45,321 nt of DNA, from assembly GCA_937930675.1 (NCBI GenBank), contig CALHCC010000015.1, positions 1 through 45,321 on the forward strand, given 5' to 3'. The stretch is from an uncultured Flavobacteriaceae bacterium. GTDB taxonomy: Bacteria > Bacteroidota > Bacteroidia > Flavobacteriales > Flavobacteriaceae. The position numbers and the translations under genes are program-made. This document shows positions 8,105 through 45,192 of this stretch, piece after piece. Below the pieces are notes generated by a model. The model was not told the origin of the DNA. It saw only the letters and a list, made by a program, of their open reading frames with translations, and searched no databases. The stretch's first letter is position 1. Every line of letters begins with the position of its first letter.

Positions 8105-8134
8105 TTTGGTTACAGACAAATAATTGTACTTTTA
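8105..8134 (+). promoter_or_regulatory. promoter of parA-parB operon
   Basis: TTTG at 8105-8108, an 18-nt spacer, then TACTTTTA at 8127-8134 (one mismatch to TAnnTTTG). It lies 26 bp before the ATG at 8160 and overlaps the alternative TTG start at 8124, which argues against that longer frame. Confidence 0.6.
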
Positions 8135-8159
8135 CACTGGTTATAAAAAGCGGCTATTC

Positions 8160-8921
8160 ATGGGAAAAATTATTGCTATTGCAAATCAAAAAGGAGGAGT
8201 TGGTAAAACAACTACCTCAGTAAACCTTGCTGCCTCTTTGGGGGTTTTAGAAAAAAAGGTTTTAATTATTGATGCAGATCCGCAAGCCAATGCAACATCT
8301 GGATTGGGAATTGATATTGAAACCGTAGAAAAGGGAACCTATGAAATTTTAGAACATACTTGTAGTGCTCAAGAGGCTATTGTTAACACCAATTCTCCCA
8401 ATGTAGACATTATTCCTGCACACATTGATTTGGTAGCTATTGAAATAGAGCTGGTAGACAAAGAGCGTAGAGAATATATGTTAAAAGAATCGTTAAAACC
8501 GATTCAAGACCAATACGACTATATTATTATAGATTGTGCTCCTTCTTTGGGTTTAATTACCTTAAACTCCTTAACGGCAGCAAACTCTGTTATTATTCCT
8601 ATACAATGTGAATACTTTGCTTTGGAAGGGCTCGGAAAACTATTAAACACCATTAAAAGTGTTCAAAAGATACACAATGCTGCTTTAGATATTGAAGGAT
8701 TGTTATTAACCATGTACGATTCTCGTTTACGACTGTCAAATCAAGTGGTAGAAGAAGTAAAAACGCATTTTAGCGACATGGTATTTAAAACCATTATACA
8801 ACGTAACATCCGTTTAGGAGAAGCTCCAAGTTATGGAGAGAGCATTATTGCATACGATGCTACGAGTAAAGGAGCTATTAATTATATTAACTTAGCGAAC
8901 GAAGTGATTACCAAGAATTAG
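8160..8921 (+). CDS. parA: chromosome-partition ATPase ParA (Soj)
   Basis: Walker-type ATPase that, with ParB, segregates newly replicated origins. The deviant Walker A is KGGVGKTTT starting at residue 11 of MGKIIAIANQ, followed by DADPQANAT (A') and IIIDCAPSLGLIT (Walker B). At 253 residues without an N-terminal HTH it is of the chromosomal type. I use ATG 8160 rather than a TTG at 8124: the TTG lies inside the -7 element and would add 12 residues before the family's usual M-G-K-I-I start. Followed after 5 bp by parB. Confidence 0.93.
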   Translation: MGKIIAIANQKGGVGKTTTSVNLAASLGVLEKKVLIIDADPQANATSGLGIDIETVEKGTYEILEHTCSAQEAIVNTNSPNVDIIPAHIDLVAIEIELVDKERREYMLKESLKPIQDQYDYIIIDCAPSLGLITLNSLTAANSVIIPIQCEYFALEGLGKLLNTIKSVQKIHNAALDIEGLLLTMYDSRLRLSNQVVEEVKTHFSDMVFKTIIQRNIRLGEAPSYGESIIAYDATSKGAINYINLANEVITKN

Positions 8922-38076: not shown

Positions 38077-38958
38077 TTAAATTTCTGCACTACTTCTTGC
38101 TACAGATCTATCAATTTTAGCAAATAAACCTTGTAACACTTTTCCCGGCCCTACTTCTATAACTTCAGAAGCACCATCAGCAATCATGGCTTTTGCACAT
38201 TGTGTCCATTTTACAGCTCCTGTTAACTGAGCTATTAAATTTTGTTGAATTTCTGTAGGGTCTGTTACCGCCTTTGCCACTACATTTTGATACACAGGGC
38301 AAGTAGGTTGGTTAAACGTTGTTGCCTTGATAGCCGCTGCCAATTCTTCTTTAGCAGGCTCCATTAATGGAGAATGAAAAGCTCCTCCTACAGGTAATAA
38401 CAATGCTCTTCTAGCTCCTTTTTCTTTAGCCAACTCACACGCTGCTTCTACAGCTTTAAATCCTCCAGAAATCACCAATTGCCCAGGACAATTATAATTA
38501 GCCGCTACCACATCTCCTTCAATAGTTGCACACAATTCTTCAACCACTTCATCATCCAATCCTAAAACGGCAGCCATAGTACCTGGTACAGATTCACATG
38601 CTTTTTGCATCGCATCTGCTCTTTTTGCTACTAACTTTAAACCATCTTCAAAAGACAAAACGTTATTTGCCACCAAAGCAGACAATTCTCCTAAAGAATG
38701 TCCTGCTACCATATTGGGTGTAAAGTTATCCCCTAACACTTTTGCTAAAATTACCGAATGTAAAAAAATGGCAGGCTGCGTTACGTTGGTTTGTTTTAAA
38801 TCTTCTGTAGATCCTTCAAACATTATTTTTGTAATCTCAAATCCTAAAATTTCATTTGCCTTGTCAAACAACTCTTTTGCTACCAATGAGTTATCATACA
38901 AGTCTTTTCCCATTCCTGTAAATTGTGCTCCTTGTCCAGGAAATACATATGCTTTCAT
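38077..38958 (-). CDS. fabD: malonyl-CoA:ACP transacylase
   Basis: A 293-residue acyltransferase loading malonyl groups on acyl carrier protein for fatty-acid synthesis. It contains VFPGQGAQFTGMGKDL, the nucleophile S88 in VAGHSLGELSALVA, the Arg helix KLVAKRADAMQ, the active-site His in GGAFHSPLMEPA, and VEVGPGKVLQGLFAKI at the end. Length is typical (about 290-310). Transcribed alone from a -7 element at 38989-38996. Confidence 0.95.
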   Translation of the reverse strand: MKAYVFPGQGAQFTGMGKDLYDNSLVAKELFDKANEILGFEITKIMFEGSTEDLKQTNVTQPAIFLHSVILAKVLGDNFTPNMVAGHSLGELSALVANNVLSFEDGLKLVAKRADAMQKACESVPGTMAAVLGLDDEVVEELCATIEGDVVAANYNCPGQLVISGGFKAVEAACELAKEKGARRALLLPVGGAFHSPLMEPAKEELAAAIKATTFNQPTCPVYQNVVAKAVTDPTEIQQNLIAQLTGAVKWTQCAKAMIADGASEVIEVGPGKVLQGLFAKIDRSVARSSAEI

Positions 38959-39149: not shown

Positions 39150-39761
39150 ATGAAAATTACATTCTTTTTCTTATCTGGTTTTATCTTGTCTTTTTTAGGG
39201 GCATTGCCTTTAGGTACTGTAAATTTAGCAGTAATTAATAGCAGTATTGCTTACAAGAAAAAGGCTGTGAAAAGAATAGCTATTGCAGCAGGTTTTTCTG
39301 AAGTAATTATTGCCGTATTTGCTTACAAATATGGAAATACTATTTTAAACACCATTAGCAATTATATTTTTCTCCAATATTTTATGGTGGCGGTTCTTTT
39401 TAGTTTAGCCATCTATTTTTTCACCAGAAAAGAAGAAACTCAAAAAACAGTGAATCTTCATATTTCAGATTTTAATAAAGGGTTCTTACTAGGACTTGCT
39501 AATCCATCTGTATGGGCATATTGGGTAATTGCTATTGCCACGTTAACTTCTAAAATTTCAATTGAATATACAAATTTTATAACTCCAATTAGCAGCATTG
39601 TATTTTTTGCAGCAGTGTATTTTGGTAAGCTATTTGCTCTACTATTATATGGTAAAATTGGAAAACAATTAATTACACAAAAAAAATCTTTTAAAAACAC
39701 ACTTATTGGTAGTTTATTAACCATTACGGCTACCATTCAATTAATCACACAATTATTATGA
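39150..39761 (+). CDS. LysE-family transporter
   Basis: A 203-residue inner-membrane protein of the LysE/RhtB exporter superfamily with about six hydrophobic segments. The family opening FFLSGFILSFLGALPLGTVNLAVINSSI contains the conserved P-L-G/G-P-(N) region. GFLLGLANPSVWAYWVIAIA is the second typical block, with N-P-x-x-x-x-x-W. Such exporters move amino acids or small metabolites out of the cell. It heads the plus-strand run of arsenic genes: its stop overlaps the next ATG by 4 bp (ATGA at 39758-39761). Export of an arsenosugar or thiol compound is a context-based guess. Confidence 0.82.
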   Translation: MKITFFFLSGFILSFLGALPLGTVNLAVINSSIAYKKKAVKRIAIAAGFSEVIIAVFAYKYGNTILNTISNYIFLQYFMVAVLFSLAIYFFTRKEETQKTVNLHISDFNKGFLLGLANPSVWAYWVIAIATLTSKISIEYTNFITPISSIVFFAAVYFGKLFALLLYGKIGKQLITQKKSFKNTLIGSLLTITATIQLITQLL

Positions 39762-40468
39762 TCAAACAAACCATTTTAGCCATACTTATTTTTATTAGTA
39801 CTCAAACTTTTGCTCAGTCAGAAATTTGGAACCAACTTTTAACAAGCCATGTTACCTCTAAAGGAGGTGTTAACTACGATGCTTTTTTAAAAGACAAAAC
39901 TAAATTAGATACTTATTTAACGTATTTAAACAATACCTCTCCACAACAAAGCTGGTCTAAAAACAAAACCAAAGCTTTTTGGGTGAATGTTTACAATGCA
40001 TATACTATTAAGTTAATTTTAAATAACTATCCTATTACATCTATCACTAAAATTAAAGAAAACGGAAAGTCTGCATGGGATCTTCCTTTTGTAAAAGTGG
40101 GAAAGAAAACATATACATTAAACCATATTGAACACGAAATTTTAAGAAAAAAATACAACGACCCTCGTATTCATGTTGCTGTAAACTGTGCTTCTATTTC
40201 ATGTCCTGCTTTAATTAATAAAGCTTTTACAGAAAATAACATAGAACAATTACTAACAAAAGGAATTAAAGATTTTATTAACGATCCTGTTAGAAACCAT
40301 ATTCATGCTGATTTTGTAGAATTGTCTCAAATTTTTGATTGGTTTAAAAATGATTTTACGCAACAAACCAATTTGATTACTTTTATCAACAAGTACAGTA
40401 ACGTAAAAGCAAACGCAAATGCTTCTATTAAGTACAAAGATTATAATTGGAATTTAAACAAGCTATAA
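39758..40468 (+). CDS. DUF547 exported protein
   Basis: A 236-residue protein with a signal peptide (MIKQTILAILIFISTQTFAQS) and the DUF547 domain: WVNVYNAYTIKLILNNYP, then SAWDLPFVKVGKKTYTLNHIEHEILR, then the Cys block VAVNCASISCPALINKAFT. The N-A-x-C-x-S-x-x-C core is characteristic. Its function is not known; a cysteine-peptidase-like/transglutaminase-type fold has been suggested for the family. It overlaps the LysE gene by 4 bp and touches the next gene with no gap (TAA then ATG), so it is firmly part of the arsenic operon here. Confidence 0.85.
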   Translation: MIKQTILAILIFISTQTFAQSEIWNQLLTSHVTSKGGVNYDAFLKDKTKLDTYLTYLNNTSPQQSWSKNKTKAFWVNVYNAYTIKLILNNYPITSITKIKENGKSAWDLPFVKVGKKTYTLNHIEHEILRKKYNDPRIHVAVNCASISCPALINKAFTENNIEQLLTKGIKDFINDPVRNHIHADFVELSQIFDWFKNDFTQQTNLITFINKYSNVKANANASIKYKDYNWNLNKL

Positions 40469-40804
40469 ATGCAAAAGACATACTACGATCCTAAGGATTT
40501 AAAAGATTTTGGAAAAATTAATGAATGGGATGAAGAACTAGGAGAGAAATTTTTTGAATACTACGGAAAGGTTTTTGAAGAAGGAGCTTTAACTTCTAGA
40601 GAAAAGTCTTTAATAGCCTTAGCAGTATCACACGCGGTACAATGTGCTTATTGTATTGATGCTTATACTACGGATGGTTTAAAAAGAGGCTTAGACAGAG
40701 AAGAAATGATGGAAGCAGTACATGTTGCTGCGGCTATAAAATCCGGAGCAACTTTAGTACACGGAGTACAAATGATGAAGAAATACGATAAATTGTCGAT
40801 GTAG
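40469..40804 (+). CDS. arsenosugar biosynthesis-associated peroxidase-like protein (AhpD/CMD-like)
   Basis: A 111-residue carboxymuconolactone-decarboxylase/AhpD-like protein. The redox pair C-x-x-C with its following His-type helix is seen in VQCAYCIDAYTTDGLKRGL, preceded by LTSREKSLIALAVSHAV. The start MQKTYYDPKDLKDFGKI and the short length match the subfamily regularly encoded beside the radical-SAM protein ArsS. It may reduce a peroxide or an arsenical using the Cys pair; the substrate is not established. It starts directly after the DUF547 stop and is followed by 109 bp of repeat-containing DNA before arsS. Confidence 0.85.
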   Translation: MQKTYYDPKDLKDFGKINEWDEELGEKFFEYYGKVFEEGALTSREKSLIALAVSHAVQCAYCIDAYTTDGLKRGLDREEMMEAVHVAAAIKSGATLVHGVQMMKKYDKLSM

Positions 40805-40808
40805 AATT

Positions 40809-40908
40809 TGAGTTACAAGTTGAAAGTTCATAAAGTTTTAAAGTCTTCTTTTTAAGATAATTTAATCTAACAACTTTTCAACCTTCAACTTTAAACCTTA
40901 TAAACTCA
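40809..40908. repeat. imperfect ~100-bp inverted repeat before arsS
   Basis: TGAGTT (40809-40814) and AACTCA (40903-40908) mark the ends of an imperfect inverted repeat. Its arms share words such as AAGTTGAAAGTT on the left and CAACTTTTCAACCTTCAACTTT on the right half. It fills nearly the whole gap between the AhpD-like gene and arsS. Such GTTGAAAGTT-type palindromes look like dispersed intergenic repeats of Flavobacteriaceae. Confidence 0.5.
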
Positions 40909-40913
40909 GAATA

Positions 40914-41963
40914 ATGAAATCACTCGCAAAAAGAAAAGACAGCTTAGCGGATCCTAAAAATCAACTAGCTCTTTTTAATAGTGGAATATTTGCTAATGGC
41001 GATCTTCCTACCTTTAAAGATAAAACATCAGAAACCGATCAGTTTCCCTTAAAACCCAACAACCTTGAAATTTTTCAAGTAAATGTTGGGTATATGTGTA
41101 ATCAAGTATGTGCACATTGCCATGTAGATGCAGGTCCAGATCGTAAAGAAATTATGACCACAGAAACCATGCAATTGTGTTTGGATAAATTAAAAGAGTC
41201 TGGTGCTACTACTTTAGACTTAACAGGAGGAGCTCCAGAGATGAATCCAAACTTTAGATGGTTTGTAGAAGAAGCAAGTAAAATTGGAGTAAAAGACTTT
41301 ATTGTTCGTTCTAACTTAACCATTTTAAGAGCCAATAAAAAATACTACGACTTACCTGAATTCTTTAAAAAACACAATGTTCATGTCGTATCGTCTTTGC
41401 CTTTTTATAAAAGAGGTAAAACAGACAAACAACGTGGTGATGGTGTTTTTGATGCTTCTATAGAAGCACTAAAAGAATTAAACAAAGTAGGCTACGGAGT
41501 ACAAGGCAGCGGACTAAAATTAGATTTAGTTTTTAATCCTTCAGGAGCATTTTTACCAGGAAATCAAGAAGACTTAGAACATGAATTTAAAACCGCTCTT
41601 AAAGAAGATTTTAATATTACGTTTAACAACTTATTTGCCATTACCAATTTGCCTGTAAGTAGATTTTTAGAATTTTTAGTAGCCACTGAAAATTACGAAG
41701 ATTACATGGATGAGTTGGTAGATGCTTACAATCCTACCGCTGTAGAAAGTGTGATGTGTAAAAACACCATTTCTGTAGATTGGCAAGGATACTTGTACGA
41801 CTGTGATTTTAATCAGCAATTAGATTTAAAAGTAGCTACCACTGGTAAACACCTCTCAGAGTTTGATGCTGAGGCTTTAAAAAACCGTAACATTATTGTA
41901 TCTCAACACTGTTATGGTTGTACGGCAGGTGCAGGAAGTAGTTGCCAAGGAACAGTAGCATAA
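40914..41963 (+). CDS. arsS: arsenosugar biosynthesis radical SAM protein ArsS
   Basis: A 349-residue radical-SAM enzyme thought to add a 5'-deoxyadenosyl group from SAM to dimethylarsenite in arsenosugar formation. The [4Fe-4S] motif is C62-x3-C66-x2-C69 (GYMCNQVCAHCHVDAGP). The SAM-binding LDLTGGAPEMNP (GGxP-type) follows. The C-terminal DUF3641 region has further Cys residues: VMCKNTISVDWQGYLYDCDF and HCYGCTAGAGSSCQG. The family includes selenoproteins; here no in-frame TGA is needed and these positions are Cys. The start is the ATG after the repeat, giving the usual N-terminus. It is followed by a hairpin and the DUF2064 gene. Confidence 0.93.
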   Translation: MKSLAKRKDSLADPKNQLALFNSGIFANGDLPTFKDKTSETDQFPLKPNNLEIFQVNVGYMCNQVCAHCHVDAGPDRKEIMTTETMQLCLDKLKESGATTLDLTGGAPEMNPNFRWFVEEASKIGVKDFIVRSNLTILRANKKYYDLPEFFKKHNVHVVSSLPFYKRGKTDKQRGDGVFDASIEALKELNKVGYGVQGSGLKLDLVFNPSGAFLPGNQEDLEHEFKTALKEDFNITFNNLFAITNLPVSRFLEFLVATENYEDYMDELVDAYNPTAVESVMCKNTISVDWQGYLYDCDFNQQLDLKVATTGKHLSEFDAEALKNRNIIVSQHCYGCTAGAGSSCQGTVA

Positions 41964-41980
41964 AATTTAATTTTACACGT

Positions 41981-42018
41981 GTTTAAGTTTACGAATCTTT
42001 AAATTTGTAAACTTAAAC
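41981..42018. repeat. 12-bp perfect inverted repeat before the DUF2064 gene
   Basis: GTTTAAGTTTAC (41981-41992) and GTAAACTTAAAC (42007-42018). The stem can extend inward by four pairs (one G-U) to leave a 6-nt loop. It ends 7 nt before the ATG at 42026 and has no T tail, so it may act on translation or RNA stability rather than termination. Confidence 0.6.
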
Positions 42019-42025
42019 TTATACA

Positions 42026-42634
42026 ATGAGCAATCAACTCTTAATTATATTTACTCGTAGACCTGAGTTAGGAAAAGTAAAAACACGTTTGGCTAAAGAC
42101 ACTTCTGATGAGGTAGCTTTAAAAGTTTACAACCAATTGGTAATACATACACACGGTATTACCAAAGATTTAGACGTTGATAAATGGGTTTTTTATACCG
42201 ATGAAATTGTATTTGACGACTTATGGGATGAAGGTGGTTTTATGAAATTAATCCAAGCTCAAGGAGATTTAGGAATAAAAATGCAAGAAGCTGTATTTAA
42301 AGGTTTTTCGGCAGGTTATTTAGAAATTGTTGTGATTGGTAGTGATATTGAAACCTTAACTTCTGAAATTATTAAAGAAGCTTTTGAACAAGTAAAAACG
42401 CAAAATGTACTTGGCCCATCAGAAGATGGAGGTTATTACCTTTTAGGCTTAAACGAACCTAGAACAGATGTTTTCACCCATAAAAACTGGGGAACAGATA
42501 CCGTATTGATGGAAACCTTGCAAGATTTTGAAAATGAAGAAGTATTTTTGTTAGATGAACTCAATGATATCGACTATTTAGAAGATATCGATGAGAATTC
42601 AGCATTATATTCAATCGTTAAATCCTATAAATAA
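42026..42634 (+). CDS. DUF2064/TIGR04282-type arsenosugar biosynthesis glycosyltransferase
   Basis: A 202-residue GT-A-like protein of the family named arsenosugar biosynthesis glycosyltransferase because it travels with arsM and arsS. The opening LLIIFTRRPELGKVKTRLAKD has the G-x-x-K-T-R-L loop shared with nucleotidyltransferase-like enzymes. The VIGSDIETLT segment takes the place of the D-x-D metal region, and VLGPSEDGGYYLLGL is the diagnostic later block. Its donor and acceptor are not known. It would either glycosylate the arsenic-bearing ribose or activate its 1-phosphate. The azoreductase gene starts 7 bp downstream. Confidence 0.88.
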   Translation: MSNQLLIIFTRRPELGKVKTRLAKDTSDEVALKVYNQLVIHTHGITKDLDVDKWVFYTDEIVFDDLWDEGGFMKLIQAQGDLGIKMQEAVFKGFSAGYLEIVVIGSDIETLTSEIIKEAFEQVKTQNVLGPSEDGGYYLLGLNEPRTDVFTHKNWGTDTVLMETLQDFENEEVFLLDELNDIDYLEDIDENSALYSIVKSYK

Positions 42635-42641
42635 AACTATT

Positions 42642-43229
42642 ATGAATGTTTTACAAATAAACTCAAGTGCCAATACACAGTCTTCTGTGAGTAGAAAATA
42701 TGTTGATGTTATTGTAAACAATATCAAAGAAAAATACCCAAATACGAAAGTGGTAGATAGAGATTTGGTAAAAGAACATTTGCCTCAACTAAATGGAGCT
42801 ATGATTGATTCTTTTTTTGCTAAAGAAGAAAGAACTCCTTCTCAAAAAGAAGCAGTTGCAGTTTCTGATGCTTTGGTAAAAGAATTAAAAGATGCAGATG
42901 TCTTAGTAATAGGTGCACCTATTTACAATTTTTCTATTCCTGCTACCTTAAAAACGTACATCGATTTAATTGTAAGAGTTGGAATGACTTTTAAATATAC
43001 AGAAAATGGACCTGTTGGTTTGTTAAAAAACTTAAAAACATTTATTGTAATTCCTAGCGGTGGGGTTCCTTTAAACAGTCCTGTAGATTTTAACACTCCT
43101 TATTTAAAACAAATTTTATCCTTTTTAGGAATTACAGATATTACTGTGATACCTGCAGATGAATTAATGATGGGAGCTGAAGAAAAATTAAAAACAGCTG
43201 AAAATTTAATTAAACAATTAGATTTTTAA
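42642..43229 (+). CDS. FMN-dependent NADH-azoreductase (AzoR-type flavodoxin-fold reductase)
   Basis: A 195-residue flavodoxin-fold quinone/azo reductase. FMN-phosphate binding is in LQINSSANTQSSVSRKYVD. The central block is DVLVIGAPIYNFSIPATLKTYIDLIVRVGMTF with the flavin-stacking region, then TFIVIPSGGV. A frame open from 42591 would overlap the DUF2064 gene; ATG 42642 gives the family N-terminus MNVLQINSS. AzoR enzymes reduce quinones and azo dyes with NADH; the natural substrate is unclear. Its place between DUF2064 and PNP suggests a reductive role in the arsenic pathway, for instance of a pentavalent arsenical, but it may only be a passenger. Confidence 0.87.
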   Translation: MNVLQINSSANTQSSVSRKYVDVIVNNIKEKYPNTKVVDRDLVKEHLPQLNGAMIDSFFAKEERTPSQKEAVAVSDALVKELKDADVLVIGAPIYNFSIPATLKTYIDLIVRVGMTFKYTENGPVGLLKNLKTFIVIPSGGVPLNSPVDFNTPYLKQILSFLGITDITVIPADELMMGAEEKLKTAENLIKQLDF

Positions 43230-43286
43230 CATAAACGCTTCAGCAATTATTTCAAATCATAGTTATTAAAAAATTACTGCGATTTT

Positions 43287-43295
43287 TATATTTTG
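43287..43295 (+). promoter_or_regulatory. near-consensus -7 element before PNP
   Basis: TATATTTTG, TAnnTTTG with one extra T, 18 bp before ATG 43314. It covers the alternative TTG start at 43293 and could give an internal promoter for PNP-arsM. Confidence 0.35.
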
Positions 43296-43313
43296 CACCC
43301 CAAACTTAAATTT

Positions 43314-44129
43314 ATGACTTTAGATCACATTCAAGAAAGTATTGATTTTTTAACTTCTAAAGGAATTCCTACACCACAAGTAGGCATTGTTTTAGGAACA
43401 GGTTTGGGTCAATTAGTAGCACAAATTACAGTTACACACGAAATTGCGTATACAGACATTCCACATTTTGTAGCTGCCACATTAGAATCTCATGCAGGTA
43501 AACTAATCTTTGGAAGTTTGGCTGGAAAAAATATTGTGGTTATGAATGGTCGTTTTCATAGATATGAAGGCTATGATTTTAATGAAGTAACTTACGGAAT
43601 TAGAATTATAAAAGCATTAGGTGCTAAGCAACTCTTAATTTCTAACGCCGCAGGAGCGATTAATCTAGACTTTAAAAAAGGAGAATTAATGTTAATTGAT
43701 GATCATATTAATTTACAAGGAGATTCTCCTCTAGCCTTTAAAAATGCCAAAGAATTTGGAAATATTTTTGTAGACATGTCTGCTCCTTATCATCAAGAGA
43801 TGAATGCTACTTTAGAAACCATTGCGGCAAATCACAACATTAACTTACACAAAGGGGTATATGCTTCTGTAGTAGGCCCTCAGTTAGAAACAAGAGCAGA
43901 ATACAAATACTTAAAAATTATTGGAGCAGATGCTGTTGGAATGAGTACCGTTCCGGAAGTGATTGTAGCCAATCAAATAAATTTACCATGTGTTGCAGTA
44001 TCTGTATTAACAGATGAATGCGACCCTAATCATTTAAAACCTATTAATATTCCTGAAATTTTTGAAATGGCTGCCAAAGCAGAACCTCAGCTAATCACTT
44101 TGTATAAGGAATTGATTAAAACACTATAA
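43314..44129 (+). CDS. purine-nucleoside phosphorylase (trimeric type)
   Basis: A 271-residue NP-II-family phosphorylase splitting purine nucleosides with phosphate. It contains VGIVLGTGLGQL, HFVAATLESHAGKLIFG (phosphate site), MNGRFHRYEGYDFNEVTYGIR, ISNAAGAIN, GVYASVVGPQLETRAEY and VGMSTVPEVIVANQ (the Glu/Met ribose region). At the purine-specificity site it reads SVLTDECDP, with Asp where 6-oxopurine enzymes have Asn. ATG 43314 is preferred to the TTG at 43293. It ends 3 bp before arsM, which supports removal of adenine from an arsenical nucleoside as its role here, though general salvage is equally possible. Confidence 0.9.
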   Translation: MTLDHIQESIDFLTSKGIPTPQVGIVLGTGLGQLVAQITVTHEIAYTDIPHFVAATLESHAGKLIFGSLAGKNIVVMNGRFHRYEGYDFNEVTYGIRIIKALGAKQLLISNAAGAINLDFKKGELMLIDDHINLQGDSPLAFKNAKEFGNIFVDMSAPYHQEMNATLETIAANHNINLHKGVYASVVGPQLETRAEYKYLKIIGADAVGMSTVPEVIVANQINLPCVAVSVLTDECDPNHLKPINIPEIFEMAAKAEPQLITLYKELIKTL

Positions 44130-44132
44130 AAA

Positions 44133-45101
44133 ATGAGTTATTTAGAAACCACCAAAGACGTATATAAAGAAGCAGCGTTAACGCCAGATGTTGGACTGTG
44201 TTGTACTACCAACCCAATTTGGGAATTACCAGGACTTACCATTCCAAAAATTATGCAAGAAATGAACTACGGATGTGGTTCTACCGTACATGCAAGAGAC
44301 TTAACACGTAGCCCTAAAATTTTATATGTAGGTGTAGGTGGAGGAATGGAATTGTTACAATTCTCTTATTTTTCTCGCCAAAAATCAGGTGTTGTAGGTG
44401 TAGATGTTGTGGATGAAATGTTAGAAGCTTCTGCCAAAAACTTTATTGAAGCCGAAGAAAAAAACGATTGGTTTAAAAAAGAATTTGTAGACCTTAAAAA
44501 AGGAGACGCTTTAAACCTACCTGTAGAAGATAATTCTATTGATGTCGCTGCACAAAACTGCTTATTTAATATTTTTAAAGCAGAAGATTTAAAAAAGGCC
44601 ATTGCAGAAATGTATCGTGTTTTAAAACCTCACGGTCGTTTGGTAATGAGTGATCCTACTTGTGAACAACCTATGAACGATGAATTGCGTAATGACGAAC
44701 GTTTACGTGCCTTATGTTTAAGCGGAAGTTTACCTATCGCAGAATACGTAAAAGCATTGACCGATGCTGGCTTTGGAACCATTGAAATTAGAGCCAGAAA
44801 ACCGTATCGTATTTTAGATCCTAAAAACTATCCTACAGAAGAGTTAATCTATATAGAATCTATTGAAGTAGCTGCTATTAAAGACCCTATGCCAGAAGAT
44901 GGTCCTTGTATTTTTACAGGTAAAGCTGCTATTTATTATGGAGACGAAGACTTTTTTGATGATGGTAAAGGACATACCTTATTAAAAAATCAGCCTTTAG
45001 CCATTTGTGACAAAACAGCAAAAGCTTTAAAAGATTTAGGAAGAGACGATATTTACTTTTCAGAATCTACCTACCATTATGATGGTGGAGGATGTTGCTA
45101 A
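44133..45101 (+). CDS. arsM: arsenite methyltransferase ArsM (arsenosugar type)
   Basis: SAM-dependent methyltransferase (322 residues) converting As(III) to methylated arsenicals. The SAM motif I is LYVGVGGGMELLQF at about 65-77, followed by VVGVDVVDEML. Candidate As(III)-binding cysteines are C23-C24, C48, C143, C177, C195 and one near 269 in EDGPCIFTGKA. The C-terminus ends GGGCC, a feature of the arsenosugar-type subfamily, and differs from classical ArsM, which is about 370 residues with other Cys spacing. It is the last gene of the run and is followed by a strong terminator. Confidence 0.92.
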   Translation: MSYLETTKDVYKEAALTPDVGLCCTTNPIWELPGLTIPKIMQEMNYGCGSTVHARDLTRSPKILYVGVGGGMELLQFSYFSRQKSGVVGVDVVDEMLEASAKNFIEAEEKNDWFKKEFVDLKKGDALNLPVEDNSIDVAAQNCLFNIFKAEDLKKAIAEMYRVLKPHGRLVMSDPTCEQPMNDELRNDERLRALCLSGSLPIAEYVKALTDAGFGTIEIRARKPYRILDPKNYPTEELIYIESIEVAAIKDPMPEDGPCIFTGKAAIYYGDEDFFDDGKGHTLLKNQPLAICDKTAKALKDLGRDDIYFSESTYHYDGGGCC

Positions 45102-45129
45102 AATCGTAACAAATAAATTAGTTTAAAAT

Positions 45130-45168
45130 AAAAAAAGAGGAAAACAAAATTGTTTTCCTCTTTTTTTT
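45130..45168. terminator. intrinsic terminator after arsM
   Basis: An 18-bp stem-loop (45130-45147 with 45150-45167, core GAGGAAAACAA) with A and T tracts of at least seven on each side. Usable in both directions, for arsM and for the minus-strand gene entering from the right. Confidence 0.9.
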
Positions 45169-45192
45169 GTGTTAACAAAAATTAATACCATT

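Follow-up and report, generated by a model that had tools for sequence, protein, structure and literature searches.

The eight genes at positions 39150-45101 of a 45,321-nucleotide stretch from an uncultured Flavobacteriaceae bacterium (the window, an entire contig of a 1.97-Mb genome) probably contain a six-gene core for the biosynthesis of arsenosugars, built around the radical SAM enzyme ArsS. Judged from sequence, this core would include a purine nucleoside phosphorylase (PNP) that removes adenine and a TIGR04282 protein that acts on a sugar-1-phosphate, and the genes for a LysE-family transporter and an azoreductase-type protein would have been added in the lineage. The type of locus, which probably turns toxic arsenic into arsenic-containing sugars, is already known; here it has two private extra genes. 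The first-pass annotation of the window had regarded all eight genes as one arsenosugar system, in which the DUF2064 (TIGR04282) protein glycosylates and LysE exports the product.

That this is an arsenosugar-type biosynthesis locus is supported, since ArsS, ArsM, the AhpD-like protein and the TIGR04282 protein score above the cut-offs of arsenosugar models. The locus thereby matches four of the five models of the NCBIfam arsenosugar set (TIGR04167, NF038099, TIGR04169, TIGR04282 and TIGR04283) over their curated cut-offs. It differs from this set in that TIGR04283 has no match above cut-off in any of seven members of the genus, including the window's own 85.6% complete genome, in the addition of LysE and azoreductase, and in the presence of PNP and DUF547, whose best NCBIfam and Pfam models are not arsenosugar-specific. 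The ArsM and ArsS of Synechocystis PCC 6803 are said to perform the initial steps, methylation and adenosylation (work of Xue in 2019 and Cheng in 2021). As far as the accessible parts of the literature on these enzymes allow a comparison, the window has both enzyme families and the CX3CX2C radical-SAM motif and, in contrast to the initial steps covered there, supplies candidates for the subsequent ones. The motif cysteines of ArsS (C62/C66/C69) are invariant in 14 aligned sequences, as are C282, C297, C333, C336 and C344. In the accessible text of PMC8552651 and PMC12159101, arsenosugar biosynthesis is described as starting with ArsM and ArsS.

For the comparison of gene neighbourhoods we used the arsS stretches of 122 relatives: 42 other genomes of an order sample (n=395, of which 43, our own included, have ArsS above cut-off) and the best 80 of at least 592 confirmed named loci, a choice skewed to close kin, the loci most similar in ArsS being nearly all from Flavobacteriaceae. 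All 122 ArsS sequences are distinct. The stretches mostly extend 7-9 kb to each side, some being shortened by contig ends, and the gene counts are lower bounds. By family search, the AhpD-like gene is present in all 122 stretches, TIGR04282 in 105, PNP in 75, ArsM in 66 and DUF547 in 55. The six core genes lie close together on the same strand in 46/122 loci, so that chance does not explain the cluster. Further partners are a rhodanese (57 stretches), TIGR04283 (36) and a fatty-acid-hydroxylase-like gene (21). A frequent layout is AhpD-like, ArsS, rhodanese, TIGR04282, PNP, ArsM, sometimes the fatty-acid-hydroxylase-like gene, DUF547 and TIGR04283; the rhodanese gene is absent from the window locus. 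Among the four genes that the first-pass annotation had described as added, PNP and DUF547 recur next to arsS as just given, and the 122 stretches yielded neither LysE nor azoreductase. The best reading is thus a core of DUF547, AhpD-like, ArsS, TIGR04282, PNP and ArsM plus two lineage-specific additions. The arsenosugar-type ArsM (AsSugarArsM, NF038099) follows ArsS, occurring in 36 of 49 ArsS-positive (ArsS+) and 0 of 31 ArsS-negative (ArsS-) genomes.

The adenine-removing step is proposed for the PNP, which resembles trimeric PNPs in passing the NF006054 cut-off (nearest solved chain 4lna, E 1.7e-79). In a tree of 118 rows, the arsS-associated and the ordinary PNPs form two sides of one branch with a support of 100/100. 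A survey of 70 genomes detected the arsS-associated clade in 43/43 ArsS+ and in 2/27 ArsS- genomes; 14 of the other 25 ArsS- genomes have an ordinary PNP only and 11 gave no match. Genus g2 (perhaps Flavobacterium, given that two of its PNPs cluster in the tree with those of named Flavobacterium) has both PNP types in 4/4 ArsS+ genomes, with the arsS-associated one within about 9 kb of arsS, and lacks the latter type in all 23 ArsS- genomes searched (Fisher p 6e-5, ignoring kinship). In addition, of the 75 PNP genes whose upstream neighbour is covered by the stretch, 61 directly follow a same-strand TIGR04282 gene, and in 42 of these 61 the gap is between -8 and +8 bp (start codons chosen mechanically).

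The clade differs from ordinary PNPs at the site of human His257, a residue to which the substrate 5'-OH is hydrogen-bonded in PNP according to the accessible part of PMC12648331. This position, His in an ordinary ribonucleoside PNP, is Ile246 in the window protein and Ile or Val in 100/100 arsS-associated rows (99 distinct places, L032 and L264 being the same gene); it is His in 18/18 ordinary flavobacterial PNPs, in human PNP and in the PNPs of PDB entries 8swt and 8swu. At the base site, Asp replaces the Asn of human PNP. The same combination of Asp and a hydrophobic residue is found in human MTAP (D220/V233) and in 4lna, where the 5'-OH site is Leu. The window PNP is nevertheless distinct from MTAP: it scores 96.7 bits with TIGR01694, under the cut-off of 274.85, and keeps the Glu of the human-Glu201 site, which is Ser178 in MTAP. 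The substrate of human MTAP is a 5'-deoxy-5'-thio nucleoside, and the known arsenic nucleoside likewise has no 5'-OH. We read the arsS-associated PNP as an enzyme with an altered 5' pocket that would suit 5'-deoxy-5'-dimethylarsinoyl-adenosine. At the level of sequence, this clade-wide change and the usual coupling to TIGR04282 strengthen the earlier proposal that PNP removes adenine.

Several observations weigh against this assignment. The change at the His257 site is one inherited event, so the 100 rows are not 100 tests, and the PNPs of PDB entries 4lna and 4m1e also have a hydrophobic residue (Leu) there. Asp at the human-Asn243 site is common to 18/18 ordinary flavobacterial PNPs and does not discriminate, and Glu is retained at the human-Glu201 site. 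According to the accessible part of PMC2799393, human PNP accepts adenosine-type substrates once it carries the double exchange E201Q/N243D. Asp with Glu kept is thus weak support for adenine use, of a kind that does not mark the clade, and we rejected Asp at the Asn243 site as an adenosine-specificity switch because ordinary flavobacterial PNPs have it too. PNP was not found in 47/122 arsS stretches of relatives; 20 of the 42 order-sample genomes are among these cases, and all 20 carry it elsewhere in the genome. AsSugarArsM is missing from 13/49 ArsS+ genomes. Two genomes negative for both ArsS and AsSugarArsM, G133 (L169) and G251 (L170), keep a rhodanese-TIGR04282-PNP-DUF547-TIGR04283 module, which may serve another substrate or work on imported precursors. 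Finally, the arsS-associated PNP is the sole member of its family detected in 39/39 ArsS+ genomes outside g2, so purine salvage in general may also be among its functions. As a side observation, the 13 genomes without arsenosugar-type ArsM include G150, G188, G218 and G390, from another family of the order.

A role in purine salvage underlies the alternative that the PNP is an ordinary purine-salvage phosphorylase parked in the operon, with adenine being lost non-enzymatically or through a 5'-methylthioadenosine/S-adenosylhomocysteine (MTA/SAH) nucleosidase. Such a role would agree with the finding of a single NF006054-type PNP in the window's own genome as in the other ArsS+ genomes outside g2, with base-site residues (Asp and Glu) shared with ordinary PNPs, with the two ArsS- genomes that have the clade, and with the separate MTA/SAH nucleosidase encoded in the window's genome. 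It accounts poorly for the separate clade formed by the His257-type ordinary PNPs, for the g2 genomes, in which both types coexist only where arsS is present, and for the coupling to TIGR04282; we consider it unlikely. The nucleosidase also means that the PNP is not needed for MTA/SAH, and a role as the genome's required enzyme for these compounds was rejected on this ground.

For the TIGR04282 protein, glycosylation as previously annotated is an NCBI label (arsenosugar glycosyltransferase, a hypothetical equivalog) and not a shown activity, and a nucleotidyltransferase fold may suit the sequence equally well or better. The protein also matches the guanylyltransferase family CofC of Pfam (PF01983, 24.1 bits, cut-off 22), and its only good solved match is PDB 3cgx (E 2.6e-19), a putative nucleotide-diphospho-sugar transferase. 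In a 52-row alignment, a motif GxxK[T/S]RLA, which presumably has a role in nucleotide binding, is present in 35/35 rows of the window type (35-80% identical to the window protein, which is itself included). The remaining 17/52 rows form a second type that is 19-27% identical and lacks the motif; several of its members are situated in SusC/SusD loci. Taken together, this suggests an enzyme of the nucleotidyltransferase type more than an established glycosyltransferase, and PNP could supply such an enzyme with a fitting substrate, a sugar-1-phosphate. The second glycosyltransferase of such loci is usually TIGR04283, which occurs in 36/49 ArsS+ genomes (one under the curated cut-off) and in 6/31 ArsS- genomes; it is a common companion and not required, 13/49 ArsS+ genomes being without it. 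G373 and G391 have TIGR04283 in the absence of ArsS.

According to our proposal, ArsM would convert As(III) into dimethylarsenite and ArsS would add a 5'-deoxyadenosyl radical to yield 5'-deoxy-5'-dimethylarsinoyl-adenosine; both reactions are known for relatives and are assigned here by family. PNP would then remove adenine by phosphorolysis, giving 5-deoxy-5-dimethylarsinoyl-ribose-1-phosphate, as its altered 5' site, distinct clade and distribution suggest. With less support, TIGR04282 would take up this sugar-1-phosphate, most likely for nucleotide activation. Since TIGR04283 was not found in the genus, the final aglycone transfer would fall to another enzyme. TIGR04169, DUF547, LysE and the azoreductase receive no step in this scheme. 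In its strictest form, with PNP as a dedicated dimethylarsinoyl-adenosine phosphorylase and TIGR04282 as a nucleotidylyltransferase making nucleoside diphosphate (NDP)-arsenoribose from arsenoribose-1-phosphate, the scheme is a tentative one that we would not presently favour. If true, arsenosugars would be built via a nucleotide-activated arsenic sugar that is passed to TIGR04283 or, in this genus, to another glycosyltransferase.

Comparison with six congeners indicates which of the window genes stand apart from the core. ArsS is present in 6/6, as is the gene order of a divergent fabD followed by genes for a transporter, DUF547, AhpD-like protein and ArsS on the opposite strand. The TIGR04282-PNP-ArsM unit exists in 5/6. 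Three congeners have it immediately after these genes, one has it past a two-gene insert on the opposite strand, and one carries it at a different chromosomal place. In the remaining congener, whose genome lacks AsSugarArsM, a SusC/SusD/symporter block comes next, with TIGR04282 behind it at the stretch's edge. At the place of LysE, 6/6 congeners encode a transporter of the queuosine-precursor type (three identified by NCBIfam TIGR00697, three by Pfam Vut_1), a gene also seen near arsS in 5/122 relatives. LysE and azoreductase were not found in the genomes of 6/6 congeners. In the window, azoreductase separates TIGR04282 from PNP; in four congeners those two genes overlap by 1 bp or sit 1 bp apart. 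Both genes look like additions in this lineage, because LysE occupies the place of another transporter and azoreductase splits the TIGR04282-PNP pair. G+C contents (28.9% for LysE, 29.6% for azoreductase, 28.3% for DUF547) give no clear foreign signal.

A co-transcribed system of all eight genes, in which LysE exports the product and azoreductase provides a redox step, is a quite improbable alternative. The genes do lie on a common strand, with a 4-bp overlap of LysE and DUF547, 7 bp between TIGR04282 and azoreductase, and a terminator after arsM. On the other hand, the occurrence of either extra gene in 0/122 arsS stretches and 0/6 congener genomes leads us to reject both as core parts and leaves the proposed exporter and redox roles in an arsenosugar system unsupported, and the congeners have their different transporter at the LysE place. 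Absence beside the arsS of relatives was what the first-pass annotation had itself named as refuting its claim, and it removes these two of the four extra genes. Moreover, among 397 family genomes (own included), 33 others have azoreductase homologues at E 1e-20 (top identity 52%) and 55 have LysE homologues at E 1e-8 (top identity 39%); 20 homologue regions (10 LysE, 10 azoreductase) contained no further cluster gene. The azoreductase-type protein scores under the NCBIfam azoreductase cut-offs (nearest solved chain 1v4b, E 1.3e-39); no ArsH-named model is among its nine NCBIfam matches at E 0.001, and the solved chains listed for it are azoreductases and related quinone reductases. At the azoreductase's place between TIGR04282 and PNP, some relatives encode a protein with a DM13 domain and a type IX secretion tail (for example at L057:10087-10875 and L104:12356-13054), a protein type found near arsS in 10/122 relatives.

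That the locus serves arsenic detoxification, with ArsM and ArsS making a less toxic organoarsenical and arsenolysis by PNP yielding a ribose-1-arsenate that is reduced by thiols in place of ArsC, is very improbable, as it leaves the 5'-site change, the coupling to TIGR04282 and the TIGR04169 and DUF547 partners unexplained, even though PNP is reported, in the accessible part of PMC12608789, to reduce arsenate in vitro (with an in vivo role described there as unknown). In agreement with the earlier annotation, which had noted no ArsR, ArsB or ArsC, none of these domains nor Acr3, the markers of an ars detoxification operon, was detected among 38 Pfam-scanned window proteins (ORFs, i.e. open reading frames, of at least 140 aa plus the two free-standing ones of 60-139 aa), with no search for ars genes in the rest of the genome; this absence would also suit a PNP that replaces ArsC. 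ArsA_ATPase appears as a weak secondary match (37 bits) of a ParA-like protein encoded at 8124-8921, whose best family scores 237 bits.

The features of the locus are compiled in Table 1. An ORF check confirmed eight plus-strand ORFs at the positions given by the first-pass annotation, profile matches in Pfam and NCBIfam bore out all eight families, and the gaps of -4, 0, 109, 62, 7, 84 and 3 bp are exact when internal ATGs at 42642 (azoreductase) and 43314 (PNP) are used.

Table 1. Features of the arsS locus and its surroundings (positions in the window)
Feature	Position	Strand	Match or fold
fabD, divergent upstream neighbour, synteny anchor, outside the system	38077-38958	-	TIGR00128, 339.6 bits
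LysE-family transporter, probable lineage-specific addition, 4-bp overlap with DUF547	39150-39761	+	PF01810, 27.1 bits (barely above cut-off 25.6)
DUF547 protein, core, signal-peptide-like N-terminus as judged by eye	39758-40468	+	PF04784, 94 bits
AhpD-like/carboxymuconolactone decarboxylase-family protein, core	40469-40804	+	TIGR04169, 187.5 bits (cut-off 120)
ArsS radical SAM enzyme with DUF3641 C-terminus, core	40914-41963	+	TIGR04167, 441 bits (cut-off 300)
Hairpin of 16 pairs (one G-U) without T tract, arsS-TIGR04282 spacer	41981-42018	+	fold 41955-42030, -16.5 kcal/mol
TIGR04282/DUF2064 protein, CofC-like, motif GKVKTRLA, core	42026-42634	+	TIGR04282, 176.4 bits (cut-off 134)
FMN-dependent NADH-azoreductase-type protein, probable lineage-specific addition, between TIGR04282 and PNP	42642-43229	+	Flavodoxin_2 PF02525, 144.6 bits
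Trimeric-type PNP, arsS-associated clade, Ile246 at human-His257 site, core	43314-44129	+	NF006054, 326 bits (cut-off 218)
ArsM, arsenosugar-type As(III) methyltransferase, core	44133-45101	+	NF038099 AsSugarArsM, 572.6 bits (cut-off 400)
Intrinsic-type terminator hairpin, A/T flanked, could act on both strands	45130-45167	+	fold 45100-45180, -21.3 kcal/mol

A single transcript across the eight-gene run is plausible. The run is unevenly spaced, the 62-bp spacer between arsS and TIGR04282 containing the hairpin without T tract. The terminator claimed for the end of the run was recovered by folding as a 17-pair stem with a T tract right behind arsM, and was not listed by a consensus terminator scan. 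The contig stops 220 bp past arsM, and the downstream context thus lies outside the data. Folding also revealed, in the 109-bp spacer upstream of arsS (40805-40913), a long hairpin with imperfect pairing whose arms resemble ACAAGTTGAAAGTT / AACCTTCAACTTT. A scan for sigma-70 promoters returned 23 sites, below the shuffle mean of 30.4, and the Bacteroidetes-type promoter pattern had one match in the locus, at 42518 within TIGR04282, among four on the plus strand of the window.

A different kind of arsS neighbourhood involves SusC (26/122 relatives), SusD (27/122) and an SSF-type symporter (26/122) near arsS on its strand, for example at L098:10887-17728. Several of these SusC/SusD loci hold a second TIGR04282-like gene without GxxK[T/S]RLA. 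AsSugarArsM is missing more often from ArsS+ genomes with the symporter at arsS (8/14) than from the others (5/35; Fisher p 0.004, post hoc and ignoring kinship), as if symporter-type genomes imported an organoarsenical instead of making it.

Arsenosugars are plentiful in seaweed and seafood. As far as the accessible text of PMC8552651 and PMC12159101 goes, enzymes have been described for no more than the initial steps of their biosynthesis. In a partial literature search, which covered few subscription journals, we found no published link of PNP to this pathway; among the papers listed, those naming both arsenosugar and purine nucleoside phosphorylase concern, by title and abstract, human arsenic metabolism or arsenic in general. 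The comparison shows which genes of the window to exclude from the pathway, and the part worth following is the conserved PNP-TIGR04282 pair and not the packing of eight genes. It makes PNP a specific and testable candidate for the next step of arsenosugar biosynthesis, sharpens the hypothesis on TIGR04282 and indicates that many genera of the Flavobacteriaceae probably have an arsenosugar core.

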